A stretch of 64,000 nt of DNA from Tremella fuciformis (lineage: Eukaryota; Basidiomycota; Tremellomycetes; Tremellales; Tremellaceae): the NCBI GenBank assembly GCA_032768795.1, contig CP136495.1, forward strand, positions 1,738,501-1,802,500, written 5' to 3'. This document shows positions 25,873-43,876 of the stretch, piece by piece. Under the pieces are notes generated by a model. That model was not told the DNA's origin. It did no database searches and worked only from the letters and a program-made list of their open reading frames with translations. Positions within the stretch are counted from its first letter, which is position 1; each line of letters opens with the position of its first letter. A program made the position numbers and the translations under genes.

Positions 25873-26976
25873 TTATACGAGGGATGGACGCCAGACGTCG
25901 CCGGGCTGCGGAATTCCCGAGGCCGGCAGCGTGGAACGTGCCGGGTCGGTGTTGAGGAACCGACGGCCGATGGCGGCGGTGCGGTTTGGCCCTGCGTCAA
26001 TGTACAGGCGGTAGCAGTCGCTGTTCCACCTGCCCAGCGTCTTGATGTCGGTTGCGGACATGCCCACCGAAGCAGCCCAGGTTGCGGCCCCGCGCCGGAA
26101 CGAGTGGCCCGAGAACAGCGCGGATGCGTGGCCACTGTTCGAGAGGGCCCGGTTGAGCAACTTGCAGACGTCGACCCGTCTGAAGGGAGAACGTTGGAGG
26201 TCAAAGAGCGGTGCGGTTGCGTCCTCCGGGCGTGCGGCGAACCAGGCGCGAAGGGCGCGGCGAGGACATACGTCCGGCGGCCCTTCCGGGATCACCACCG
26301 TGACGCCTTGGCGGAACGGGTCGGTCTTGGAGGCCGGGATTGTCAGGCGCCAGTCACCGACCTCCGGGATGATGACGCTGTCGCGGCGGAGGTCGAAGCG
26401 AGGGTCGAACTTGTCGTACGTGAGCTCGCCCATCCTCATGAAGCAGGCAAAGGCAAGGCAGAAAGCCGCCACCAAGGCCGCCGCATTGCCGGGGCCGCCG
26501 TAGGTGGTAGGGTGGTCTCGGATGTGTCGCACGATGCGACGCAGCACCGGGAGGGTGATTGGGAGGGGCTGGCGGCGGGAGACCACTCCGTGGAAGCGGT
26601 TGGCGCCGGCGATGACTCGCTCTAGGCGGGGCGTCGCGATGCCCGAAGCATCCAAGCCGAGGTCGGTGTGCCAGGACACCAGCGCCGCAACCTTCCTCTT
26701 GAGTGTCTTCTTGGAGAGCCCTTTGTCCCCGGCGATCCGCCGAGCCTCCGAAGCTATCCACGCCTCCACTTGATCCGTTCAGGCCGGCCAGGCGGTGGGC
26801 CAACCCCGCAGGCGGCAGAAACGCTTGAAGGAGCGGACCGCCGCGTTGTACGAGGCGCGGGTCGCTCCGGAGATGCTGTACCAGAGGTAGGTGGCCGCCA
26901 GAGCGTCCCCGCCGACGTCCCTGTGCCAGTCGCACGGTGGGGGTTCTAGGCGACCCCGGGCTGGTTCGGGAAGCAA
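25873..26976 (-). pseudogene. Tyrosine recombinase of the DIRS-like element, one in-frame stop
   Basis: The enzyme would integrate circular DNA copies of the element by site-specific recombination. The catalytic domain has MRMGELTYDKFDP (first catalytic Arg region), the H-x-x-R box in FSGHSFRRGAATWAA, and LGRWNSDCYRLYI with the nucleophilic Tyr. The N-terminal SAM-like helical domain includes ATRASYNAAVRSFKRFCRLR. Between WPTAWPA and TDQVEAWIASEA there is a TGA in the same frame (26781-26779 on the minus strand), so the full recombinase is broken by a single nonsense codon. A CGA to TGA change would explain it. The 5' end overlaps the RT/RNase H ORF by about 30 nt in another frame, typical of compact retroelements. 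Confidence 0.85.
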
Positions 26977-27907
26977 GCGTCGGCGTAGGGCATTCGTGGC
27001 GGTGGGAGGTGCGGCGGAGAGTCAGGGATGGTGCCGGTGGGCTCGACACGAGCGTGGGATGGAGGGGGCAGGAGGCGGGTGACGTGTGGGCATTTGGCAA
27101 GCAGGTAGGGCCAGTCAAAGCGGGATAGGGCATCAGCTACATCATTCACGGCACTGGGCACCCAGTCGGGCACGATGGTGACGTGAAGCTCCAGGGCGAG
27201 GGCAAAGATCTCTCTTACGAGGGTCATGGTGGCCTTCTGGTCGCAGCGGCCCGAGCGCAGTGATGCGACGAGGGCCGCGTTGTCGATCTTGAGCATCACC
27301 TCCGCTCCCCTTGCGGTGTCTCCCCATAGGCGCAGCGCCTCCAGGGCGGCTAGCGTTTCCAGGAAGAGGATATCCTTGCCGGCGTGTCTGGCGGGGACGG
27401 TCATGGACATGGCGGCTGTGCAGGCCTCCCGGGGACCCAGGTGCGCGCCCAGGCCTCGGGTGGTGGCTGCATCAGACCAGATCTCCACGCGTGGGCGGTT
27501 CCTTGGGATGATGGTGATGCCATCCCATCGGTCGAGCATGGACCGCCACCAGCGTAGTTCGTCGCCCAGGGCGCCCGCGGTCGAGCGGCTCGCCCAGTCG
27601 TGGGCTGAGGCGTTGGCGGCGTCGTAGATCCGGCGCATGAAGGCCCGGCCCGTGGGGCACACGCGGGACACAAAGTTGAGGAAGCCCGCAAGGGCCTGGA
27701 GTTCGTTGGGGTTGGCGCGAGGGCGCGTCAGGATGCTGTCGAGTTGCCCGCGGAGGCGGTCGAGTTTGGCGGGGCTTAGCCACGCCCGCCCGTCCTGGCT
27801 GTTCACCATGACCCCCAGGATCTCCAACTCGAACCCCGTAGCTGACTTGTTGTCCGAGATTGAGACCCCGAGCGCGTCGCATACGGCTTTGAAGAATGTC
27901 AAGGTTG
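26946..27907 (-). CDS. DIRS-like reverse transcriptase C-terminal part and RNase H
   Basis: Severed 3' portion of the pol gene. It begins right at the LTR insertion point with FFKAVCDALGVSISDNKSAT, then FELEILGVMVNSQDGRAWL (thumb region common to DIRS RTs), and ALAGFLNFVSRVCPTGRAF. The RNase H follows with IWSDAATTRGLGAHLG, LFLETLAALEALRLWG, MLKIDNAALVASL and VNDVADALSRFDW, in which the acidic residues of the active site can be picked out. It ends LPPPRMPYADACFPNQPG. The part upstream lies 8.9 kb away at 36820-37964. Alone it has no start codon of its own that would make sense. Confidence 0.85.
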
Positions 27908-27912
27908 CCTGG
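27908..27912. repeat. Target-site duplication CCTGG, left copy
   Basis: CCTGG directly precedes the left LTR and is repeated directly after the right LTR (36820-36824). A 5-bp duplication is the normal size for Ty3/gypsy integrase. It proves that both LTRs belong to one insertion event. Confidence 0.93.
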
Positions 27913-28684
27913 TGTCAGGAAACCGACACGGCATCCTGACCACGAGACTACCACGAGGCAACTTCCGACGGAAACATCCAAAGGATCCTACGAACCAAAG
28001 AACGTGAGTACGATAGAACCGTCACTATTAGTCACGAATAACTACGACTTGCTCTTGAAAGCGCTAGAACAACCTGGAGAACGATAGAAGGATACGTCTC
28101 AGTCTTCCATCGGCCGAGTTGAGATAGGAACGCACGCAAGGACAAGAGTCAGGTCCACGATAACGGAGGATAGAGTTATCTCACAGTCAGGGCCACGGGG
28201 CGGAGACCGAGGACGATAAGGACGACGACGGGCACGCAAGGAGATTAGATGCAAGCCAGCGCGGAGAGAAGACGATAGAAGAGAAGAGAGACGACGAGAG
28301 AATACTAGAGAGTATTGGGAACGAGTAGAAGCGACTAGGAGAACGATGGAACGATCCACGAAGGACGATGCTAGAAGGATCAGAGTGAGAGCGGGCGAGA
28401 GTCAGCAGATACTTAAGAAGGAAGATCGCAGAGGAAGTTCCTCAGCGATCTAGTTAACTAGTCCTCTAGATAGAACGTCTACTTAGAGAATCGACCGTAC
28501 CAGTGACGAGAGATAGATAAGTGAAGTGAGTCTTGATCGCTCCTCACCCAGCTTGGTTCCACTCTACTCTTGTTCGTTACTATCTGTTACGAATAGTCGT
28601 TAATAGTTAGCAGCTTGAACCGATAGATTGATTTAGGTGAGCTTTAGTTGGATCTAATACAGGTCACCGGGTACAGGTCTGACA
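27913..28684 (+). repeat. Left LTR of the chromovirus
   Basis: 772 bp, TGTCAGGAAACC to GGTCTGACA, with a short terminal inverted match TGTCAG/CTGACA. It is the same length as, and as far as read identical to, the right LTR 8135 bp away. It contains AGCGATCTAGTTA (28444-28456), the complement of the primer-binding site, which would mark the 5' end of the genomic RNA (start of R) if the element self-primes. Confidence 0.95.
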
Positions 28685-28686
28685 GA

Positions 28687-28699
28687 TAACTAGATCGCT
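28687..28699 (+). promoter_or_regulatory. Primer-binding site, probably self-priming
   Basis: TAACTAGATCGCT begins 2 nt after the left LTR, the normal position of a PBS. It is a perfect 13-nt complement of AGCGATCTAGTTA inside the same LTR (28444-28456). In Tf1/sushi-type elements the RNA 5' end folds back and serves as primer, instead of a tRNA. The position and length agree with that mode; no tRNA 3' end match was evident, although I could not search the genome's tRNAs. Confidence 0.7.
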
Positions 28700-28733
28700 C
28701 ATATCCTTCGACAAGCCACCAAATCAAGACGAC

Positions 28734-29978
28734 ATGTCCTCTGCACCTACGACCGGGTACGGCCTTAGGAACCGAGGCGCGACAGGCAATCCCGACGCAG
28801 AGCATGAGCTGATCACTCCTCCCACTGGGACTACCACGGAGGAAGGAGAAGGAGTCCAAGGTACGCCAGGCGTGTACGAGCCAGGCGCTCAAGAAGACAC
28901 GATGGAGTCTACCCAGGATGATGGGCTCTCTTCGATTAGGACCCAACTCGATAAGATTGGTGAGGCACTGTTGCTTTTAAGTCAGAATCAAAGGATGATG
29001 ACTGAGCATCGAGTGAACCAATTCGAGACTAATACGAACAAATCGAACAACAAGGAACCAAAGGTCAACTCTCCGGACGAGTATCAAGGAGAAAGGAACA
29101 AGCTCACCGGATTCCTGACGCAGTGTCAGCTGGTCTTCGACTTACAACCAGCCCGATACGCCACCGACTATGCCAAGATCCGATATATGATATCGTTCTT
29201 TAGGAAGGCGCCACTGCACTCTATTGAGGCGCACTTAGCTAAGGATGTCGACGATCAGCCTAGATGGCTTCACGATTACGGGTTGTTCATCAAACACATC
29301 AAACGAACCTACGGAGACCCAGATGAAGTTCATACAGCCGAACGGAAACTATTAGCGATCCAACAAAAGTCTTCTGTTACGAATTACTTTGCAGAGTTCG
29401 AACAGTTATCATCATTGCTGGATTGGCCCGATTCGGTTCTCATCGCCAAGGCTAGGGAAGGCTTGAAGCCCTCTCTCAAGGACGCCATCGCTACCAAGGT
29501 GGAGGAAATCCCTAAGACCTGGAACGACTTTGTCACGGTGATCACGAGACTTGATGAACGCATGTTCGAGAGGGAACAAGAGAAGAAGAACGAACAAGGA
29601 CGCCCAGAGAGGCATGAACCGCGACAAATAGAAACGAATAGTGGGCGAGTGCGACCAGCTGTTACCAGTTTTAACCGCTCATCAGAAACCAGCACAGTCA
29701 AGAGCACTCAGCCACCGCGTGCGACCACCCCATGGAATGGCAACCCATTCGCAGGCCTAGGTATGCGACCACGCCTGAGTGAGTTCGAGAAGCAGAGACG
29801 AAGGGATTCGGGCTTATGCTTTTCTTGCGGACAGAGTGGTCATCAGGCCAAGGACTGTTCGCAATCGACGCGATCTCAAGGAACGGTGGTCTCTTCCAAT
29901 GCTACGAACACCTACCAGCGTACCACGACCCCTTCTACGAGCTCGCAACAGTCAAAAGTAAGCGCCCCGTCGAATTGA
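28734..29978 (+). CDS. Chromovirus Gag polyprotein, 414 aa
   Basis: Forms the virus-like particle that packages element RNA in the cytoplasm. It starts MSSAPTTGYGLRNRG. The central capsid region resembles the retrotransposon gag domain: KLTGFLTQCQLVFDLQPARY, IRYMISFFRKAPLHSIEAHL, then VHTAERKLLAIQQKSSVTNY and ARLDE-like helices before a charged linker. A zinc knuckle CFSCGQSGHQAKDC (C-x2-C-x4-H-x4-C) lies near residue 361. The frame ends at 29978 inside the pol frame, which is offset by -1. A run TCAAAAG at 29952-29958 near the end could support slippage. Confidence 0.9.
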   Translation: MSSAPTTGYGLRNRGATGNPDAEHELITPPTGTTTEEGEGVQGTPGVYEPGAQEDTMESTQDDGLSSIRTQLDKIGEALLLLSQNQRMMTEHRVNQFETNTNKSNNKEPKVNSPDEYQGERNKLTGFLTQCQLVFDLQPARYATDYAKIRYMISFFRKAPLHSIEAHLAKDVDDQPRWLHDYGLFIKHIKRTYGDPDEVHTAERKLLAIQQKSSVTNYFAEFEQLSSLLDWPDSVLIAKAREGLKPSLKDAIATKVEEIPKTWNDFVTVITRLDERMFEREQEKKNEQGRPERHEPRQIETNSGRVRPAVTSFNRSSETSTVKSTQPPRATTPWNGNPFAGLGMRPRLSEFEKQRRRDSGLCFSCGQSGHQAKDCSQSTRSQGTVVSSNATNTYQRTTTPSTSSQQSKVSAPSN

Positions 29979-32900
29979 GAGGGAGTCGGGGCTCAAACAA
30001 ACCTCTCACTCTAGGTGCGGCATTCGAGAATTATAACGGAACAGAATTTATTGGGGACGAACTACTACCAAAAAGATCAATTGTATGCTACGATAACATG
30101 ACCGAGAATCTACGATTGAGGGTACTCCTAACTGGCGGCCGGGCAAAGCTCCAGTGCGGATTCCCTTCCTTATATTGCCGACAAGGATATCTCTCCAACA
30201 TCCTGTTCGACACTGGAGCCAGCTCCTGCTTTGTCGACTGGAGGTCAGAGATAGCCCAGACCTTAAACCACACCGTGATTGAACGACCCAAACACGTAGT
30301 AATGTTTGATGGACGTACAAGCGCGTTTGGTCTGATTCACACCTATATCGACACGAACATCCAACTTCATCCCGAATATCCCCCAATAGATGTCAAATTG
30401 CTTGTGACGGAATTAAATGGGGCCGACATTGTATTGGGATGGCCGTGGATGGCCGAGAACGGAGTAACCATTGATGCGAGGCATGGATGGGCTGAGTTCC
30501 CGTGCACTCCTGTGGTGAGAAAACCACACAGACGAAAAGGGAAGGCTTACAGGAAGCCCTATGCGTCCGGGACAACCTATCCCAACAACATCGAGATCGC
30601 GGAAAGCGGCAATCGATGGAGACCGATCTCAGTAACCCAGGAAGGATCTGGCGAGGCTGGAATAAGCAACGATGGCGAAGGAGCAACAGAAACGAATAGC
30701 TGCGAAAAAGCGCCAATGGCGGACGATCCTCGTGAAGGGGCTGGGACGGAAGACGGGACTCCCGTACTCAGTGACCCTTCTACGAGGGATGATGAGTCAA
30801 GCGATGATTCTAGTGGAATCTACGACGACTACAAATACGGCAAGGATGAAGCCGGAACCGATCCGGAGGATTGGACGGCAATCGAAGATTTGCAAGATGT
30901 GACTATTTGGAACAAATGGGGACGAATAGCACTTGAGGAGAAAGAATACGACCAAACAAGGGTAGAGGTGAACGGAGTAACCGCCAGTGAGAGCGACTCG
31001 TACACGACCTTGAACGAGAAGGAACAGTCTTCGGCAAAGGAAAGCAAGATTCCAGAGGCCTACCAAGGATGGGAAGACTTGTTTGAAGAACCGAGTGGGT
31101 CGGCAGCGCTGCCGCCACATCGACCGTACGACCACAGGATAGAACTAAAGGAGGGAGGTAAGCTGCCTCTTGCTCCTCTCTATCAACTATCTCCGAAAGA
31201 AAAGAACGCCTTACACGAATACTTGGAAAAGGAGAAGGCGGAAGGAAAGATATACCATTCGTTATCACCTTATGGATCGCCGGCGTTCTTTGTCCCGAAG
31301 AAAGACGGACGCTTACGACTAGTCGTGGACTATCGCAAGCTAAATGAAGCCACAGTAAATAGCGCCTATCCGTTACCATTAATCTCGCAGATCTTGGCAG
31401 ATCTACGTGACGCACGGTTCTACACGAAGCTGGATTTGGCAGGGGCCTATCAGCTGGTGCGGATGGCTGAAGGACACGAACACCTGACAGCGTTCAGGAC
31501 TATCTTTGGTATGTTCGAGTCCACTGTGATGAGGGATGGCCTAAAAGGGGCTCCCGCAACGTTCCAACATTTTATGAACGATATATTTTCGGAACTAATA
31601 GGGAAAGGTGTCTACGTATATATCGACGACATTCTCATTTACGCGAAAACGGTTGAAGAACTTCGAGCTCTTACCAAGACAGTCTTCGATATACTACGAC
31701 AATGGGAGCTTCGACTAAAAGCAGCAAAATGCGAGTTCGAGAAAGACAGCATTACATTCTTAGGACACAGGGTGTCTGCGGAGGGGATAGCAACCGACGA
31801 AGGACTAACAGAAACTATTAGGAACTTCCCTATCCCGACTACACAGAAGGAACTACGATCTGCGGTGGGTCTTTTCAGTTACTACCGAAGATTTGTACCC
31901 AACTTCTCGGGAATTGCGAGACCTCTCAACAAGTTGATGTCGAAGAAAGCAAGGTTTATTTGGAACGAAGAGGCTGACAAGGCATTTCAGTCGCTGAAAG
32001 GTGCCCTATCATCACCGCCTATTCTCGGGCACTTCGATCCAGAGCTCCCGATAGAGGTACACACGGATGCCTCGGACTTCGCCATTGGGTATGTGATCTA
32101 CCATGTGGATCGCAACACCATGAAGCGAACGGCAATCCATTATGGTTCAGCAAGGCTCAAACCGAATGAGGAGAACTGGACTGTCACCGAGAAAGAACTA
32201 TTCGCAATTATTTATTGCTTACAACATCATCGAGCATATTTCGAGGGCAGCAAATGGCCAATAATCTTTGTTACCGACCATCAGCCCTTGATAGGGTATA
32301 CCATGCCGAAGCAGGTATCAAACAGGGAGGCCAGATGGGCAGAGATCCTGGCTCGCTTCGATCTACGAATAGTGTACACCCCAGGTAAGGGCAACGTGGT
32401 ACCAGACGCCCTGTCGAGACGACCTGACCTGGCAGGGACAAGAGGCGGTGACAGTTACCAAACGGACTCGAAGGTTCGACAGGTGATCGAGACAATCGAT
32501 GCTGAGAACGAATTGGACCAAATAGTGACGAACTTAGAAGAGTCAAAGAAGACAGCTTCAATCGTCGAAGACCAGGAACCCCTTGAAATGTATGGGGTTA
32601 CAACGACCGAATCACCCAGTACAGCAGACCCGAACACGTATGATTGGATCATCGATGGAAGCAGAGTAAGGGAAGGGTATATGAAGGACGAGCAGTGCAG
32701 GCAAGTCATCGAAGGGATTGCCGCACAGAAACCGCTCGAAGATATTAGGAACGAATTGCGACTATCAAGCGATACTAGAGTCGAAATAGACCAACAAGGA
32801 TTCATCCGCATCGACGGCAAAATCTATATCCCAGACTACGATGATTTGAGGTTCAAGATCATAAACTCAAGACACGACACTCCGTTGGCAGGACATCCAG

Positions 32901-34309
32901 GAGTTAAAAGGACTATGAAGGCGGTTCAACGGGACTATTACTGGCCTGGGCTCACTGCGCACGTCACCAAGTACGTGTCGAGCTGCACAGCCTGTCTGCG
33001 CACCAAGCCTTTCAACCAGAGACCAAGAGGTCAGCTACGAACCTTGGAAGTTCCACGCCTACCGTTCGAGGACATCACGATGGACTTCATCGAAGAGCTG
33101 CCAGTCTCAAACAACTTCAATTCAATACTAGTAGTGGTCGACCGCTTGACAAAGTACACAGTGCTCATACCCACGGTAACAAAGTTGAACGCACCCGAAA
33201 TGTGTTCGTTACTATTCGATACGGTTTTCTCCAGATACGGACTGCCGAGCACGATTGTATCTGACAGGGGAAGTAAATTTGTATCAGACTTCTGGAGGAG
33301 TCTAACGGAGCAATTCGACATTCGATTGGCACTCAGTACGGCAAGAAGGCCGCAGACTGATGGTCAAACCGAGCGACATAACCAGAAAGTAGAGGGATTC
33401 ATGAGGATCTTCACCAACTTCGACCAGGACAACTGGGCACCGTTGTTGGCATTCGCCCAGTTCGCCATCAACAACGCCCATCACGATACGATAGGAATGA
33501 CCCCGTTCTATGCGCTACACGGATTTCATCCTAGATGGGTTCAGGAAATATTAGAACCGAATAAAGTCGACAATCAGCAAGCAAGACAACGTGCGAACTC
33601 AATGAATGAGGTGCACTCAATCTGCAGGGAGAACTATGTGCGAGCAGGGAAGGAGATGGAGAAGTACTACAACAGGAAGCATCAGCCTCAAGTCGAGATC
33701 AAGGACGGAGACTATGTCATGTTGGACCTCGAGGGCCTTAACACGAAACGACCCAGCAAGAAACTCGACTACAGGCGAGATGGACCCTTCCAGGTGGAAG
33801 AATCAATAGGAACACACGCGAAGAAATTGAAGTTACCAGCGACGCTCAAGATCCACAATGTTTTTCATGTGTCCAGACTGCATCCTGTGGACGTTATTAG
33901 CGTCGAAGACAAACGAATACGACCAAAAGGGCAACCACAAGGACTACCAACTATAGTGGAGCCTGATGCTGAATTTGAAGTCGAGAGGATTCTGGACTCA
34001 AGAAGAACAAGGAATGGGAAAGTCGAGTACCTAGTGGAGTGGAGAGGCTACGGGGACGATGAAGTGGGCTGGGAGCCGGAGGTGAACGTCAGAAACGCGG
34101 CAGAGGTTGTAAGAACATTCCACGAGCGACACCCCGACAAGCCCATTGGTCACACATTCGGAGGAATCAAGAAAGATAGGAGCTATTCAAAACGAATAAA
34201 GACAAATAGCGACAAAGAAGAGCCTATACGACCTAACAAACGACAACGAACTCAAGAGTCAGTCAGGCAAGAGACCGGGCACAGGCATAATCTAAGAAGT
34301 CGTCAGTAA
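29816..34309 (+). CDS. Chromovirus Pol polyprotein with C-terminal chromodomain
   Basis: The open frame runs 1497 codons from 29816; true translation probably begins by a -1 shift out of gag, so the first methionine is not meaningful. Domains in order: aspartic protease (NILFDTGASSCFV, about residue 130); reverse transcriptase (KLDLAGAYQLVRM; catalytic box YIDDILIYAKT near residue 601); RNase H (VHTDASDFAIGY, TEKELFAIIY); integrase zinc-binding HHCC region (HPGVKRTMKAVQRDYYWPG, then SCTACLRTK); integrase core D-D-E (MDFIEELP, SDRGSKFVSDFW, QTDGQTERHNQ); a GPY-like module ending HNVFHVSRLHP; and a chromodomain (EFEVERILDSRR, YLVEWRGYGDDEVGWEP). The tail is basic. No stop or frameshift is seen, so the enzyme set looks functional. 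Confidence 0.95.
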   Translation: MLFLRTEWSSGQGLFAIDAISRNGGLFQCYEHLPAYHDPFYELATVKSKRPVELRGSRGSNKPLTLGAAFENYNGTEFIGDELLPKRSIVCYDNMTENLRLRVLLTGGRAKLQCGFPSLYCRQGYLSNILFDTGASSCFVDWRSEIAQTLNHTVIERPKHVVMFDGRTSAFGLIHTYIDTNIQLHPEYPPIDVKLLVTELNGADIVLGWPWMAENGVTIDARHGWAEFPCTPVVRKPHRRKGKAYRKPYASGTTYPNNIEIAESGNRWRPISVTQEGSGEAGISNDGEGATETNSCEKAPMADDPREGAGTEDGTPVLSDPSTRDDESSDDSSGIYDDYKYGKDEAGTDPEDWTAIEDLQDVTIWNKWGRIALEEKEYDQTRVEVNGVTASESDSYTTLNEKEQSSAKESKIPEAYQGWEDLFEEPSGSAALPPHRPYDHRIELKEGGKLPLAPLYQLSPKEKNALHEYLEKEKAEGKIYHSLSPYGSPAFFVPKKDGRLRLVVDYRKLNEATVNSAYPLPLISQILADLRDARFYTKLDLAGAYQLVRMAEGHEHLTAFRTIFGMFESTVMRDGLKGAPATFQHFMNDIFSELIGKGVYVYIDDILIYAKTVEELRALTKTVFDILRQWELRLKAAKCEFEKDSITFLGHRVSAEGIATDEGLTETIRNFPIPTTQKELRSAVGLFSYYRRFVPNFSGIARPLNKLMSKKARFIWNEEADKAFQSLKGALSSPPILGHFDPELPIEVHTDASDFAIGYVIYHVDRNTMKRTAIHYGSARLKPNEENWTVTEKELFAIIYCLQHHRAYFEGSKWPIIFVTDHQPLIGYTMPKQVSNREARWAEILARFDLRIVYTPGKGNVVPDALSRRPDLAGTRGGDSYQTDSKVRQVIETIDAENELDQIVTNLEESKKTASIVEDQEPLEMYGVTTTESPSTADPNTYDWIIDGSRVREGYMKDEQCRQVIEGIAAQKPLEDIRNELRLSSDTRVEIDQQGFIRIDGKIYIPDYDDLRFKIINSRHDTPLAGHPGVKRTMKAVQRDYYWPGLTAHVTKYVSSCTACLRTKPFNQRPRGQLRTLEVPRLPFEDITMDFIEELPVSNNFNSILVVVDRLTKYTVLIPTVTKLNAPEMCSLLFDTVFSRYGLPSTIVSDRGSKFVSDFWRSLTEQFDIRLALSTARRPQTDGQTERHNQKVEGFMRIFTNFDQDNWAPLLAFAQFAINNAHHDTIGMTPFYALHGFHPRWVQEILEPNKVDNQQARQRANSMNEVHSICRENYVRAGKEMEKYYNRKHQPQVEIKDGDYVMLDLEGLNTKRPSKKLDYRRDGPFQVEESIGTHAKKLKLPATLKIHNVFHVSRLHPVDVISVEDKRIRPKGQPQGLPTIVEPDAEFEVERILDSRRTRNGKVEYLVEWRGYGDDEVGWEPEVNVRNAAEVVRTFHERHPDKPIGHTFGGIKKDRSYSKRIKTNSDKEEPIRPNKRQRTQESVRQETGHRHNLRSRQ

Positions 34310-34376
34310 CTATTAGTCCCAAATAGCACCCAGTGCGATTGAGGACTTCATAGGTACAACGATAGATGACTATATG

Positions 34377-35736
34377 CTACATTTCCCTATTCTTCCTCTT
34401 CAGCGACTCCAAAGTACGAACAGCTGCCTCGGCTTCACCTATCTGGGAAATGCGCGAATGTATGTCCGCAAAAGTGCCCGCAGGGATAGTGACTGTCCCG
34501 GAGGTAGACGAATTCAATCGAGCGCGTTCGAGTCCCTTCAGACCTTCCTTGAGGGAAAGGAAATGCTCTCGTAAAACCTGAAGATAAGGCGCGGGGTCTG
34601 AGAAAGAACATGCCGAAGTGCACACAGCACAGCGAATTGAGCCTGGCTTGACTCGACAAACAAGCTTGGCCTTGAGACAGCCTCGGCACGGTGGAACCGA
34701 GACCGGATATTTTTGCTGTTCGGCGAACTTCTCATTTGAAAGTGGGCGCGTGCCGCGAGCAGCACGCTTGGGCGGCGCCTCACCGGCCTTAAGTTCGGAC
34801 GGCCGTTTGTAGGGCGGGGGGACATCGACAGTGTGGGACTATTCGTTACTATTAACCCCAAACAGTACGAGATCACTTGCCTTCGGAACAAACTTAGACG
34901 GGGTCTGACTCGCGTGGGCGGCTGACATGAACGTGGCATAGTCCTACAATTAGTTACTATTCGTAACGAATAGAAACTACTCACAATGGCCAGGATCTCG
35001 TCGGGATCAACTGATTCCGGAGTGGACGGAATGGGTTTGGTCTCGTCGAGCTCGCGAATAGGAGTATCGACAATGGCGCGTTGTTTCCCTTTCCCCTTGG
35101 AACCCTTCTTGCGAGGGGGTTCGGACTCTGTCTCCGACGAGTCCAGCTCGTCTTCGATGGCGGGGGGATCGGAGGAAAGAAGGAAGGCTGCTATTAGTTG
35201 CGGATAAAATCGAATAGGAACGACTTACTAGGGTCTTCATCGACGTTACCCTCGGGATCAGTAGTCTCGGATCCATCTGGAAACTATTAGGAACGAATAC
35301 ACACGAATACAAGAAAACAAACACACCTTCGGATTTGTTGTCAACCTCCGGGGCGGGCGACGAAGTCTTGTCTTGGGCGGTGTTCAGAGGGGCAGTGGGG
35401 GCACGTTCGAGAGCAGCGGGAGCTGAGACGGTATCGGCGGGGGCGAGAGGCTGGGTGACGCCTTCTCCATCCGAGAGAGTGGGGAGGGCAGGTGTCTCAT
35501 CTGCTATTAGTGACAAATACGAGCGAGTAGTAGTAACTCACTCGGGTCCGCATCCATCTGGGTGAGATCTTGTCGGGTTTCGTTTGACGGAGCCAACTCG
35601 TCCAACTCAGGCAGGGGCGTCATAGCGGGCGAGGTGGACTTGCGCGTGAAGCGTCCCTTATGCTCTTGGTCAGTAATAGCCACGAACATGATCGAGTACT
35701 CACACGTCGTTGGGCGGATGCGCGAGAGCGGGCCAT
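34377..35736 (-). CDS. Antisense seven-exon gene inside the chromovirus, 369 aa
   Basis: On the strand opposite to gag-pol, between pol and the 3' LTR, seven exons join in frame to 1110 nt: 35736-35704, 35662-35542, 35503-35327, 35276-35229, 35190-34985, 34943-34881 and 34838-34377. The six introns are 38-50 nt with GT-AG ends (the last GC-AG), and most end in CTAATAG. The protein begins MARSRASAQRRHKGRFTRKS. It has an acidic, Pro/Ser-rich first half, then RKKGSKGKGKQRA, and a Cys cluster (PCRGCLKAKLVCRVKPGS followed by CAVCTSAC) that resembles a zinc-binding DNA-binding module near GAL4-type clusters. A helical, possibly coiled-coil end follows (LREHFLSLKEGLKGLERARL). I do not know the family. 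Antisense introns are not removed from the sense genomic RNA, which explains their survival through retrotransposition. Confidence 0.75.
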
Positions 35737-36033
35737 AGGGGGTACGCCAAAGGTCAAGAAAAGTAGATGTACGAACGAACAACGAGAGGGCGCAGTCACG
35801 CCCTTATGTATCCTGCGGGCGTCTATCGGCAAAACGGCGTTACGAGTAAAAACGAGTATGAGGCAGGCGCAAGAGCGAGCGGTTGCTAGGCAACTAGGGT
35901 GACAACTCGCAGATGCTCGACATGTAGAAAGTCGTTGCTAGGCAACGGGACGATAAGCGACAACCGATAGGCGGTATCAGGAACAAATAAAAATCAGTCG
36001 CGACTAATCTTATCATGAAGGGACTCATGATGT

Positions 36034-36047
36034 AAAGGAGGGAGGAG
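36034..36047 (+). promoter_or_regulatory. Polypurine tract of the chromovirus
   Basis: AAAGGAGGGAGGAG lies directly against the 5' end of the right LTR, the expected place of the primer for plus-strand DNA synthesis. It is purely purine over 14 nt. Confidence 0.88.
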
Positions 36048-36819
36048 TGTCAGGAAACCGACACGGCATCCTGACCACGAGACTACCACGAGGCAACTTC
36101 CGACGGAAACATCCAAAGGATCCTACGAACCAAAGAACGTGAGTACGATAGAACCGTCACTATTAGTCACGAATAACTACGACTTGCTCTTGAAAGCGCT
36201 AGAACAACCTGGAGAACGATAGAAGGATACGTCTCAGTCTTCCATCGGCCGAGTTGAGATAGGAACGCACGCAAGGACAAGAGTCAGGTCCACGATAACG
36301 GAGGATAGAGTTATCTCACAGTCAGGGCCACGGGGCGGAGACCGAGGACGATAAGGACGACGACGGGCACGCAAGGAGATTAGATGCAAGCCAGCGCGGA
36401 GAGAAGACGATAGAAGAGAAGAGAGACGACGAGAGAATACTAGAGAGTATTGGGAACGAGTAGAAGCGACTAGGAGAACGATGGAACGATCCACGAAGGA
36501 CGATGCTAGAAGGATCAGAGTGAGAGCGGGCGAGAGTCAGCAGATACTTAAGAAGGAAGATCGCAGAGGAAGTTCCTCAGCGATCTAGTTAACTAGTCCT
36601 CTAGATAGAACGTCTACTTAGAGAATCGACCGTACCAGTGACGAGAGATAGATAAGTGAAGTGAGTCTTGATCGCTCCTCACCCAGCTTGGTTCCACTCT
36701 ACTCTTGTTCGTTACTATCTGTTACGAATAGTCGTTAATAGTTAGCAGCTTGAACCGATAGATTGATTTAGGTGAGCTTTAGTTGGATCTAATACAGGTC
36801 ACCGGGTACAGGTCTGACA
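36048..36819 (+). repeat. Right LTR of the chromovirus
   Basis: 772 bp, same ends and length as the left LTR, with no difference noticed on reading both. It is followed by CCTGG (36820-36824), the right copy of the target-site duplication. Confidence 0.95.
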
Positions 36820-37964
36820 CCTGGCCCGAGGTCGGGGAGCAGGCGCCGAATGAGTCGTCCAGGTAGTGGGTCAGGTCGAGGCCAAACGACTCGGCAATCC
36901 AATGCAGGGCTTCCGCGAACAGGTTGAAGATGAATGGGGATGACCGTCCACCGAAGTTGAGCGTGCAGTCCACGTACGTGGTACCCTTGAAGTGGTAGCC
37001 CAGCAGGCGGGCGTCGCGGCTGGCCACGCTGACGTGGAAGAACGCGTCCTTCAGGTCTGCCTTCCAGAGGGCTAGCGGAGCCTCGGATGCGCGGATCCGG
37101 AGGAAAAGGTGGTCAAGGGAGTCATAGCGGAACGGGAGCGTGTCGCGATCAATGCCCGCGTTGACGGACGGGAGGCCTCCGACGGAAATAGGTGGCACGC
37201 TCACATGAGCTTGACTCATCTTCGAGTAACCTCGTCGAGGCTACTCGATCCTCGACGAGGTTGTGCCTCGACGAGGTTCACCCTCGACGAGGCAGAGAAG
37301 CTGCCACCAACGATAACTCCGCTTATAACGCCGACACCCTCGACGACCTTGTAGAATGCCGCCGCCTGTTGCCCTCCTCATCACTCATAGCAAGTGCTGA
37401 GCGGGCAACAGGTAAGTCCGAATGCATCACTCATAGCAAGTGCTGAGCGGGCAACAGGTGACCGGAATCCCATTGCCTCAGAGCTAAGATTCCGTCGGCC
37501 TCGGGCCCGCTTGCGCGGCCAGGAGAGGTCGTTGATGGTGCGGCGTTTCCCGTTGGACTTGGGTACGGTGCCGACGGGCGAGACCACGACGTTGGCGTCG
37601 TCCGCCACTGCCCGTGTCCTCCCTTGGGAGAGGCGCTCGGCGATGGTGTCCCTGACATGCTGTACTCCTGCTTGGTCGAGGGGGTGATTCCGAACCTGCG
37701 AAGCCGCCCTTGCGGCGATGAGGAGCGGGCCAGAGTACCCCAATTTCGCTCCGTGGTGTATGATGCCCAGGATGTTGCTCACGACTGCCCGATCTGGGTA
37801 TCCGTCCAGGAGTGTGGCCCAGGCGTCGGCGCGAAGCGGTGACGGTGTCGCTGGGAGGTCAGAGGGGTCGAAAAGAGCGTAGCCGCAGGTGGTGTTGGGG
37901 CGGGCTGGGGGAGGGGAGGCTGGGGGAATGAGGCCAGCGTCGAAAGCGAGCTTGGAGAGCTCAA
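36820..37964 (-). pseudogene. DIRS-like reverse transcriptase N-terminal part, disrupted
   Basis: The minus strand from about 37964 reads through NILGIIHHGAKLGYSGPLLI and VVSPVGTVPKSNGKRRTIND (fingers region). A non-homologous segment of roughly 250 bp follows (about 37200-37470), after which the RT resumes in a different frame with SVNAGIDRDTLPFRYDSLDH, LWKADLKDAFFHVSVA (first catalytic Asp), CTLNFGGRSSPFIFNLFAEA and HYLDDSF (catalytic YLDD). It stops at the LTR junction. The inserted segment breaks the frame, so the copy was probably already defective here before the chromovirus arrived. The upstream start is not clear; 37964 is the first plausible Met in a neighbouring frame only. Confidence 0.78.
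37200..37470. repeat. Palindrome-rich insert with 46-bp tandem unit in DIRS RT
   Basis: This segment interrupts the RT. It holds AACCTCGTCGAGG followed after 9 nt by its exact reverse complement CCTCGACGAGGTT, and two more CCTCGACGAGG copies. At 37381 a unit TCACTCATAGCAAGTGCTGA... of 46 bp is repeated once, 33 bp of it exactly. CTGTTGCCC (37366-37374) is the reverse complement of the GGGCAACAG ending the repeat core. Origin unknown; it could be a small non-autonomous insertion or a scar. Confidence 0.6.
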
Positions 37965-41431: not shown

Positions 41432-43876
41432 CTACGAGATCGGCGGCACTAGGCTGGAGGGAGAAAGAACCGTCCAGGGGAGCTCCTCGCGCTTAAGATT
41501 CTCATCCGTATAAATGCTGGCGCCTCCCATCTTTGGCGTTACAGGCCAAAGAAGATCCGCGAGGCCAGTACTCTTGAACATGTCGGTAAACTCCTTCTGC
41601 ATCTCGGACGCTGATGGTGATTCCGTCTTCTTGCCCGTCCAGTCCGTGCAGACCTGGTAGCCGCCATCCCCCGCCAGGCTCCAGGCCTGTCGTGTCTGCC
41701 ACAGGGCCTCCTTGCCCCGCGTCACATTGCTTGTGACTCTCAGCAGCCTCCCGTTGGAAACACAAGTCGTCGTGCACCCATAGTCGCCCTTGCGCGCAGC
41801 AAAAGTCTTTGGTGCCCCGGTCCAAGCGCTTGACAAATCCTTTTGAGTTTCAGGCGATACTGTTCCTCCACATTGTGCGACGGCCTCCTTGAACTGCTCG
41901 CGGAACCGGTCGACCCATTGGGCAGTGGTGTGTATCCCGGTCAGATGGGCTCGTTCTGCCTGTTGCTTTTCCTTTTCCAAGTCTGTCTCTTCGGTCGTCT
42001 CGTCCAGTGTCGGAAGGTCGGGCTCGAGGACAGATTTCCAAAATGGGGCCGGAGCTGGATGGAATCCTCCAAAAAAGGGTTCCTTGATCCTGAACTCCTC
42101 GCGATCCTTGGCTTGCTTCTCGGCGAGTTGTGATTTCACTGTTTTGAGGGATTCTTCGACCCATTTCTTTGTCCTAGTCCTGGCCTCGCTTGGGTGTGGA
42201 AATGTGCTGTCAAAGCTCCTTCGGAGTGCCTCGAGTTTGCCCATGACTTGGTCGGTGAGCCCGCACTCGAAATGAGAAGGCCATCTCGTGAACTCCTGTT
42301 GTGGGGTGATGGCGTCTTTGCCGACGAGGACTTTGCCGCAGGAGCAACCGACCAGCTTTTCCCATTTGTCAAAGTCCTTCGGGGAGACTTCACAGCTCGC
42401 CTTCAGTGCGTCGAAGACATCTGCGTACGTGTCCCGATCATGCTTGTTGAGAAAGGCGTCTGTGGCGGTGAGCTGTGCTTCCGCAGCATGTGCAGGGGTT
42501 CCGGTGGTCGTTTCGCGCGGGGCGTCGGAGGACTTGTCTGTCATCTCTGAAGCGGTAAGAGTGGCGCTTGTGTGACTGGTCTCCAATGGCATGGTCCGCT
42601 CTGGCTCATGCAAAGCCTTCACGCTGTGACGCCCATATTCCCAATCTTGGTGGAAATCTTCGGGGTGCTTCTTGATGAGGAACGCATTCCTCTTGTTGCC
42701 GTACCTAATCCACAGCTCGAGCAATACGCTGTCTTTTAGGGAGTGCATCCACTCCGTCACCCGCTCCCGGTCGCCCTCGCTGAGCTTGGCGAGACTCTGG
42801 TGGACCCCTTGCAGGGACGCCAGGTCGGCATAGTCGGAGTCTTGCAGGCCCATCGCATCGAAGAGCTCCTTGTGTGCACCGGCGTACGTTTCGAGGCTGT
42901 CGGTCGTCTCGTGCGCGACCGACCCGGTGATAGGGGATGGAAGGGCCAGCTCGGTGAGCTGCTGCAGCTGTTTCAGCTTCTTGATTGCCTCGGGCGGCTC
43001 CTCGCCCGTGACCTGGATCTTCCCTGGTGTCAACCAGGACTTGATCAGCCTCCTCAAGGTCTCCTTGTCCTTGTCCGTCAGGAACGATGTCTCGGCCGAC
43101 ATGTACGGCGATGGATCCGTCCAGAACTCCAGGGGCGGCTCTTCCGGGGCACCCGGCAGGGGTGGCTCTGATGAAAGTCCTCCAAGTATGGAGTATTCAA
43201 GTCCAGCTGATGTAGCAGATTCTGATTCTGGCGAATTGATCTGGGACGTGTTCTCACCGCTCGTCTCCGTCTGAGCCTCGGTCGAGCTGCCGACATAGCT
43301 AGGCTCATGGTAGGCGTACTGTCGAGGGTACTTATACGGTACCCTATCCCGTTCAATCCAACGGGGATGCTCCGCCCATTGCTCGTGTGTTGCCACGTTG
43401 TCTGCCCTCGTGTGCAGCTCCACCTTCGTCTGCGAAACCAGGGCCTCCATCCACTCTGTCACCGCCTGCCTCTCCGTCTCACTAAGTCCGGGGAGAGTGC
43501 TCTGCAAACTACGCTCGAGCGCCCTCACGTCCTCCAGATCTTCCTCCTCGACTCCCATAGGCGCCCAGACGTCCTCATGTTTCTTTATGTACTCGTCGAC
43601 GCTGACGCCGCTCGTCTCGTCATCAAAAGTGGACCCAATGGCACAGTTTGTGAGCTCCTGCAGGCGTTGAAGTCGATATGAGGCTAGTTGGCGGCCCTCG
43701 TAGCGCGTGCTTGGCAAGTGGATCTTGCCGGGTACAAGCCATGTTTTGAGGACTTTTGAAAGGGCAGTCTTGTCTTGTGCGGTCAACAAAGACCTGCTTG
43801 CATCCATGAACTGATCAAGATGTGTCCAGTACACGGGAGGAGGCTGGAGAGTCGGCTCGGATGATGTCTCGGTCAT
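41432..43876 (-). CDS. Orphan protein with three copies of a novel repeat, 814 aa
   Basis: A single-exon ORF without similarity that I recognise. Repeat 1 (residues about 16-175) has YWTHLDQFMDASRSLLTAQD, KTWLVPGKI and LSETERQAVTEWMEALVSQT. Repeat 2 (250-415) has FWTDPSPYMSAETSFLTDKD, KSWLTPGKI and LSEGDRERVTEWMHSLKDSV. Repeat 3 (468-600) is diverged: TATDAFLNKHDRDTYADVFD and EARTRTKKWVEESLKTVKSQ, with no PGKI. Acidic Ser/Thr linkers separate them. The last 170 residues form a distinct region with several Cys (GDYGCTTTCVSNGRLLRV, then GGYQVCTDWTGKK). No signal peptide or membrane segment is seen. The absence of introns is unusual here. It converges on the one-repeat paralogue, with the two forming an inverted pair. 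Function unknown. Confidence 0.78.
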   Translation of the reverse strand: MTETSSEPTLQPPPVYWTHLDQFMDASRSLLTAQDKTALSKVLKTWLVPGKIHLPSTRYEGRQLASYRLQRLQELTNCAIGSTFDDETSGVSVDEYIKKHEDVWAPMGVEEEDLEDVRALERSLQSTLPGLSETERQAVTEWMEALVSQTKVELHTRADNVATHEQWAEHPRWIERDRVPYKYPRQYAYHEPSYVGSSTEAQTETSGENTSQINSPESESATSAGLEYSILGGLSSEPPLPGAPEEPPLEFWTDPSPYMSAETSFLTDKDKETLRRLIKSWLTPGKIQVTGEEPPEAIKKLKQLQQLTELALPSPITGSVAHETTDSLETYAGAHKELFDAMGLQDSDYADLASLQGVHQSLAKLSEGDRERVTEWMHSLKDSVLLELWIRYGNKRNAFLIKKHPEDFHQDWEYGRHSVKALHEPERTMPLETSHTSATLTASEMTDKSSDAPRETTTGTPAHAAEAQLTATDAFLNKHDRDTYADVFDALKASCEVSPKDFDKWEKLVGCSCGKVLVGKDAITPQQEFTRWPSHFECGLTDQVMGKLEALRRSFDSTFPHPSEARTRTKKWVEESLKTVKSQLAEKQAKDREEFRIKEPFFGGFHPAPAPFWKSVLEPDLPTLDETTEETDLEKEKQQAERAHLTGIHTTAQWVDRFREQFKEAVAQCGGTVSPETQKDLSSAWTGAPKTFAARKGDYGCTTTCVSNGRLLRVTSNVTRGKEALWQTRQAWSLAGDGGYQVCTDWTGKKTESPSASEMQKEFTDMFKSTGLADLLWPVTPKMGGASIYTDENLKREELPWTVLSPSSLVPPIS

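Follow-up and report, generated by a model that had tools for sequence, protein, structure and literature searches.

A multi-intron antisense gene with a six-cysteine module in Ty3/gypsy chromoviruses of Tremella fuciformis, and a candidate DNA target of its predicted product

What is an intron-containing gene doing in an LTR retrotransposon, on the strand opposite to gag and pol? The question is raised by a 64,000-nucleotide stretch of Tremella fuciformis DNA (the window; contig CP136495.1, positions 1,738,501 to 1,802,500 of the forward strand), in which a preliminary description had proposed a spliced antisense gene carried by a chromovirus. According to the available part of PMC7264820, antisense genes in LTR retrotransposons have long been on record, and no function has been assigned to them.

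The chromovirus and its antisense gene

The element was found to be a complete Ty3/gypsy chromovirus on the plus strand (27913-36819). Its 5' LTR (27913..28684) and 3' LTR (36048..36819) are both 772 bp long and the same in sequence, and the element is flanked by a 5-bp target-site duplication, CCTGG (27908..27912 and 36820-36824); LTR pairing and target duplication were examined in the window element only. The gag gene (28734..29978, plus strand) has Pfam matches to Retrotrans_gag and a CCHC zinc knuckle. The pol ORF (29816..34309, plus strand) has reverse transcriptase (RT), RNase H, H2C2 and integrase core domains above the Pfam cut-offs and a C-terminal chromodomain, and its retroviral protease match was below the cut-off. 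The RT-RNase H-integrase order followed by a C-terminal chromodomain is that of a chromovirus.

The antisense gene lies on the minus strand between pol and the 3' LTR (34377..35736) and in the present model has seven exons encoding 367 aa (1104 nt). From the ATG at 35736, exon 1 (35704..35736) is followed by intron 1 (35663..35703, 41 nt), exon 2 (35542..35662), intron 2 (35501..35541, 41 nt), exon 3 (35327..35500), intron 3 (35277..35326, 50 nt), exon 4 (35229..35276), intron 4 (35188..35228, 41 nt), exon 5 (34985..35187), intron 5 (34944..34984, 41 nt), exon 6 (34881..34943), intron 6 (34839..34880, 42 nt) and exon 7 (34377..34838), the last of which encodes 153 aa plus the stop and contains the cysteine module and predicted C-terminal helices. 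The stop codon ends at 34377, 67 nt from the pol stop, and the two genes are arranged tail to tail. A candidate TATA-like sequence, TACATAAG, was recognized by eye approximately 70 nt upstream of the ATG (35803..35810, minus strand). In the window's ORF list, 34310-36047 is free of sense ORFs of at least 100 aa, and sense-strand coding in the gene region was rejected. The location, strand and open seven-exon frame of the preliminary description were thus confirmed by the gene model, and in position and strand the gene corresponds to an aORF-3R, that is, an antisense frame between pol and the 3' LTR.

Two details of that description required adjustment. It had given a protein of 369 aa (1110 nt); introns 2 and 4 both end in AATAGCAG, and use of the first AG there yields the longer protein, so that the arithmetic was reproduced and the honest range is 367 to 369 aa, the shorter value being that of the present model. 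It had also called the introns of normal fungal form, which applies to introns 1-5 (GT-AG) and is slightly too strong for intron 6 (GC-AG), the GC donor of which is present in all aligned copies covering that intron. The acceptor of intron 1 was set at ACCAAGAG because both diverged copies retain that AG and both have lost the later ATAAG. The GT or GC and AG ends are retained in the aligned copies, with the exception of the intron-1 donor of copy L039, where the sequence has been replaced, and one copy has a 1-nt insertion within intron 6.

The introns would be preserved through reverse transcription, since the genomic RNA corresponds to the opposite strand. The stronger statement that introns in a retroelement persist only in such an arrangement is sound in its logic for this gene and too absolute in general, since some retroelements export unspliced sense RNA, as described in the available part of PMC10309623. 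A gene that is both spliced and antisense is also easily missed by annotators or taken for a host gene.

Copies, related families and selection on the protein

The genome (G000, 28.1 Mb, 11 contigs) was searched for copies with a 324-bp exon-7 probe. Twenty-two copies were found, and 13 of them, counting that of the window, have 100% identity across the probe, which indicates that the window family was amplified recently with the gene in place. The window was compared with 18 of the other 21 copies (C6:568742, C2:1032522 and C10:780714 were left out); insertions interrupt two of the 18, each of which was read from two pieces. The frame was free of stops in 16 of the 18, with one stop each in L050 and L044.

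Substitution patterns were determined against two diverged copies, the dN/dS counts over the gene being made with an earlier gene model that had the later intron-1 acceptor. Against L039, which is 84% identical to the window over the probe, dN/dS was 0.22 over 363 codons, a value that includes 11 misaligned exon-1 codons, and 0.08 in exon 7; against the C9 copy it was 0.23 for the whole gene and 0.15 in exon 7. Of the six frames of exon 7, that of the gene had the lowest ratio in both comparisons, the others ranging from 0.24 to 5.8 and from 0.31 to 2.6, respectively. Exons 2-7 differ from L039 at 49, 29 and 109 sites in codon positions 1, 2 and 3 (355 of each), and the exon indels consist of one of 3 nt and one of 6 nt. 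The signal is uneven along the gene. In exon 3 against C9 the gene frame (0.30) was undercut by an opposite-strand frame (0.26), and in exon 5 against L039 selection was weak (0.63) and the six frames were not discriminated. The frame on the other strand that keeps the codon register was also low in exon 7 against L039 (0.24) and contains stops there; we read its low value as a mirror of third-position change. Stops and non-synonymous changes at the neutral rate, the signs of decay named in the preliminary description, are not what the copies display, and the comparisons indicate that the spliced antisense frame is under purifying selection.

The introns are less diverged from L039 than the third codon positions (26 of 215 versus 109 of 355; introns within the 34839-35541 region), perhaps because they carry the motif sites described below. 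L039 (G000:C4:258500-264500), the most diverged copy, has unrelated sequence joined within intron 1 and no homologous exon 1; it is possibly a chimera or a nested insertion.

A search for Ty3/gypsy RT gave at least 114 scored copies from 244 candidates. In 105 of 114, an exon of an antisense gene lies on the opposite strand at most 9 kb downstream; the median distance between the RT and the exon is 1.9-2.2 kb, depending on the family. Eight copies were without such an exon and one was paired with a match on the same strand, which fits an antisense gene belonging to a neighboring element. Exon matches were reduced with the aim of one per copy (22 of 105, 27 of 64, 22 of 24 [15 plus 7 weak], 31 of 64, 19 of 38 and 17 of 37 kept), after removal of second pieces and of cross-matches to sister families; the seven weak L061-type matches had no listed RT partner.

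Six further Ty3/gypsy families, L059, L060, L061, L062, L063 and L073, were found to carry an antisense gene at the corresponding position, the 3' LTR itself having been located for the window element only. Among the 3' regions of the first five, the six-cysteine module is present on the antisense strand in L059, L060 and L061, and in L062 and L063 looser cysteine versions were recognized by eye, spanning a presumed intron; in L073, the seventh family, the gene stands tail to tail with a chromodomain pol. Five families including the window's have in common one exon with the pattern CX2CX6CX8-11CX2CX3-5C, and L061 and L073 also have acidic open frames upstream of the cysteine exon on the same strand, which are candidate exons. 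The chromodomain scored above the Pfam cut-off in L059, L060, L061, L062 and L073, and at 24.2 against a cut-off of 25.1 bits in L063. Pairwise identity among the pol ends of the seven families does not exceed 68%. The L059 and L060 proteins match each other with E values of 3e-14 to 4e-7.

Selection on the protein was computed in four families, the window's, L059, L060 and L061. In the latter three, dN/dS of the gene frame was 0.17 (L060 versus L064), 0.32 (L060 versus L066), 0.12 (L061 versus L065) and 0.22 (L059 versus L067), each the lowest of six frames, with the opposite same-register frame close behind in these pairs (0.23, 0.34, 0.27 and 0.37). Retention in most copies and conservation at the protein level, which are expected of an aORF-3R, were thus both found, and the synonymous bias that the preliminary description had proposed to look for in related elements is present.

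A chance frame, a neutral relic and the capture of a host gene in a single copy were all rejected. A chance open frame or a recently captured host gene in decay could point to the in-frame stops in 2 of the 18 compared copies; selection, conservation across families and constancy of position refute it in our view, and we find it scarcely credible. The antisense RNA might itself be functional, as double-stranded or small RNA, with coding incidental; convergent transcription towards pol is possible, and such a role is discussed for plants in the available part of PMC7264820. A small RNA needs no reading frame. Purifying selection specific to the gene frame, seen in four families, argues strongly against this explanation, and the lengths of the exon indels, 3 and 6 nt, also speak against it; we consider it very improbable.

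Seven Ty3/gypsy families in one genome thus have the antisense gene, with protein-level selection in four, and the presence of the gene in most related elements suggests that such elements may control themselves. An intron-containing accessory antisense gene of a chromovirus, as first described for the window, is borne out by its conservation in sister elements. Its presentation as a novelty of one fungal chromovirus did not hold, both on account of the RT copies that have such a gene in this genome and on account of Boty. The brtn gene of Boty-like retrotransposons was reportedly treated by Zhao et al. in 2011. In the available parts of the sources, Boty of Botrytis cinerea has the antisense gene brtn between pol and the 3' LTR (PMC7264820), its Boty-like gag-pol has a CHROMO domain (PMC4227169), and brtn is also mentioned in PMC8365987 and PMC5987419. 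As far as these descriptions go, and the likeness is one of description only, brtn resembles the window gene in being antisense, in a fungal chromodomain element and in the same place. Plant elements also have antisense additional ORFs, namely Grande gene23, RIRE2 and Retand with a TRP28 domain (available parts of PMC7264820 and PMC11963269). They are described there as having the same position and strand, occurring in most family copies and having a proposed nuclear or DNA-binding role; they differ in their plant hosts, in that their descriptions in those parts contain no six-cysteine module or multi-intron gene, and, for Retand, in a lineage described as non-chromovirus. No TRP28 domain was among the Pfam matches above cut-off for the antisense protein. 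In the literature searched, where subscription journals were thinly covered and absence is weak evidence, no multi-intron antisense gene with a cysteine module was reported in fungal gypsy elements. An antisense gene in a fungal chromovirus is thus known in kind, and its multi-intron, six-cysteine, multi-family form is apparently new as far as we found.

The six-cysteine protein

Residues 1-30 of the predicted protein are basic (pI 12) and residues 31-185 acidic (pI 4.05), followed by lysine/arginine-rich stretches. A six-cysteine cluster, C-X2-C-X6-C-X8-C-X2-C-X3-C, is encoded at 34608..34688 on the minus strand, and the basic N-terminus, acidic middle and cysteine cluster of the preliminary description were all recovered. 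A six-frame scan of the window gave the cysteine pattern a single time, and none of 200 single-base shuffles of the window contained it. The six cysteines were invariant in alignments of 8 and 13 exons; in an alignment of 17 sequences five were invariant and one was lost in the diverged copy L064. An AlphaFold model of exon 7 made from 17 sequences was poor (pLDDT 54.8), with two helices predicted at low confidence behind the cysteine cluster.

The likeness to a DNA-binding zinc module was sustained in part. As in fungal Zn(2)Cys(6) proteins (PF00172), there are six cysteines starting with CX2CX6C, in five families (L063 departs), and an acidic region elsewhere in the protein. In PF00172 the second half is CX2CX6-8C, with a last spacing of 6-8. 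In contrast, the second half is CX2CX3-5C in five families, and a CX2CX6C second half was seen only in L062 and L063, as modeled by eye, and in a copia module, L071. Pfam gave no domain above cut-off for the window protein, with no Zn_clus match and SBDS_C below cut-off only, and the best Zn_clus scores, all below the cut-off of 21, were 16.2 bits for L062 and 11.0 for L071. The canonical Zn(2)Cys6 label was withheld because the spacing and the Pfam cut-offs were unmet; by its sequence the module appears to be six-cysteine and zinc-type, resembling Zn(2)Cys(6) and failing its tests. The L071 module (G000:C1:2593300-2593800; CX2CX6CX11CX2CX6C) lies approximately 1 kb downstream of a copia RT, apparently with it in one sense ORF of 1763 aa.

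A search of a protein database with the full-length protein gave no relative at E <= 0.001, and nothing significant came from PDB sequences or from Foldseek with the low-confidence exon-7 model. Two profile searches, each over the approximately 8,000 candidates sharing most words, in a database that may contain few spliced fungal proteins, returned P0001 alone, an L059-type exon on one 3.9-kb contig.

A dispersed motif and the possible role of the protein

The window contains 34 matches with at most one mismatch to GTNACNAATAG, compared to 6.35 expected, and 32 of them are within the element. With one LTR counted, the element has 27 sites compared to 1.45 expected: 5 in the LTR (0.14 expected), 11 in the antisense region (0.21) and 10 in the 5' leader and gag-pol (0.76), one site crossing a boundary between compartments. 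Outside the element there are 2 sites compared to 4.8 expected. All six introns contain a sequence within one mismatch of the motif, and the nine matches within the gene are divided 9 to 0 between introns and exons. Exact sites are present in the 5' LTR (28586..28596, plus strand; 3' LTR copy at 36721-36731), intron 6 (34839..34849, minus strand), intron 2 (35504..35514, minus strand) and intron 5, where two overlap (34957..34973); a cluster of overlapping motif-like sites is also present in the 5' LTR (28021..28041; 3' LTR copy at 36156-36176).

The motif was first drawn from the introns and LTR of this same element; the excess in gag-pol and the pattern of change between copies test it more independently. 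The exact intron sites number four, two of them overlapping, and nominally have 8 free and 36 fixed positions; the 4 distinct between-copy changes in them all fall on free positions and none on fixed ones. The contrast was weaker when all twelve sites were examined (varying positions, 5 of 19 free versus 12 of 88 fixed), and a preference at branch points could account for some of the signal in introns. In a word search the motif ranked first in the element, with 25 occurrences compared to no more than 14 in any of five shuffles. Of two stretches of host sequence used as controls, one was also above its shuffles (20 versus 16). Genome-wide, exact sites numbered 360, compared to 76 for the reversed pattern. 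Among the matches listed, 77 are on contig C1; 46 of these belong to full copies and 10 to pairs at LTR spacing, and the other 21 are elsewhere.

By analogy with a plant system, GTNACNAATAG is a candidate binding site of the antisense protein. VANDAL elements are DNA transposons. According to the available part of PMC5735166, Arabidopsis VANDAL elements encode their own anti-silencing VANC proteins, VANC21 binds to a 9-base motif concentrated in the non-coding regions of its own element, introns included, and VANC targets differ between families. The window system would be alike in having a self-encoded protein and a short motif dense in the element's non-coding DNA and introns; it differs in that VANC has DUF1985 and DUF287, both absent among the Pfam matches of the antisense protein. 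VANC21 is the closest working model for the antisense protein, for which an anti-silencing role might perhaps be considered.

We lean towards the interpretation that the product of the antisense gene is a nuclear, sequence-specific DNA-binding regulator of the element's own copies. An antisense transcript would start from a promoter adjoining or within the 3' LTR, and would be spliced and translated. The product, with its basic stretches, long acidic region, six-cysteine module presumably binding zinc, and C-terminal helices, would bind the element's own copies and act through LTR transcription or relief of silencing. Its candidate target would be GTNACNAATAG, dense in the LTRs and in the antisense-gene introns, a pairing of protein and motif that is itself putative. 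The preliminary description had mentioned control of host chromatin or of element expression; compared with control of host chromatin, a role in binding the element itself is, as a guess, the better supported. With a concrete candidate DNA target for the window family, binding assays could test the function directly. If the link between protein and motif is true, self-targeted control reaches from plant DNA transposons to LTR retrotransposons.

The dispersed motif also bears on an accessory replication factor, which would serve nuclear entry of the pre-integration complex, act as a chaperone or choose the integration site. The basic stretches and the conservation beside a chromodomain-bearing integrase would suit such a factor, and nuclear roles have been proposed for plant antisense genes (available part of PMC7264820). 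We hold it to be unlikely. It leaves the dispersed motif without explanation. In addition, nuclear import and targeting could already come from the integrase and the chromodomain. Alternatively, the protein may be a repressor limiting the element's own copy number. Self-limitation is common among retroelements. HBZ, which restrains HTLV-1 expression, is an antisense, spliced nuclear regulator in the available part of PMC10186651, and the window gene is like it in antisense, spliced layout. HBZ differs in being a bZIP protein of a retrovirus, with spliced and unspliced forms differing near the 5' end, compared to six introns here. The 13 identical copies weigh against a repressor, which we regard as quite improbable.

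Other families also have dispersed palindromes. The word search gave CCTCG[AT]CGAGG in L059 and L060, CTCG[CG]CGAG in L061 and L073, and CTCGAGTCGA in L063; no motif stood out in L062. There is overlap, CTCGACGAG being found also in L061 and L073, and CTCGAGTCGA occurring in L059 too, as well as weakly in the window element. Compared with the family-specific dense motifs of the VANC type, the motif of the window family is dense and nearly specific, and there is partial sharing of palindromes among the other families. Genome-wide, CCTCGWCGAGG was found 1656 times compared to 33 for the reversed control, and GCTCGSCGAGC was mildly enriched (148 versus 90). CCTCGWCGAGG was also over-represented in the window outside the chromovirus (8 versus 2.0).

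Related proteins tend to go with related palindromes, which suggests protein-DNA pairs. We tentatively raise the idea, which we think doubtful, that the antisense six-cysteine protein of each chromovirus family recognizes its own scattered motif and that protein and motif have co-diverged; the candidate pairs would be GTNACNAATAG for the window family, CCTCG[AT]CGAGG for L059/L060, CTCG[CG]CGAG for L061/L073 and CTCGAGTCGA for L063. A copia element, L074 (G000:C1:2853950-2858800), has CCTCGWCGAGG arrays in its LTRs with a spacing of 16-20 bp, and neither an antisense gene nor the cysteine pattern was seen in it. Arrays without the gene count against the protein and the motif being paired exclusively, and such sites may be bound by a host factor. 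If co-divergence is true, these families would form a set of sequence-specific self-recognition systems, perhaps anti-silencing, parallel to VANC, and the copia family would borrow the L059/L060 system.

Some minor observations concern the surroundings of the element. A tyrosine-recombinase match lies at 25873-26769 on the minus strand, at 20.2 bits and thus below the cut-off of 27.1, and an RT match (2e-8) adjoins the chromovirus at 36779-37219, also on the minus strand; the chromovirus looks to sit inside, and to split, an apparent tyrosine-recombinase/RT (DIRS-like) element (25873-27902 and 36779-37219). An 814-aa ORF at 41432-43876 has repeated segments, as judged by eye, and no Pfam domain above cut-off. 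Elsewhere in the genome, dense copia clusters, such as those at C4:161-242 kb and C9:132-193 kb, occur roughly once on each contig and may be the centromeres.
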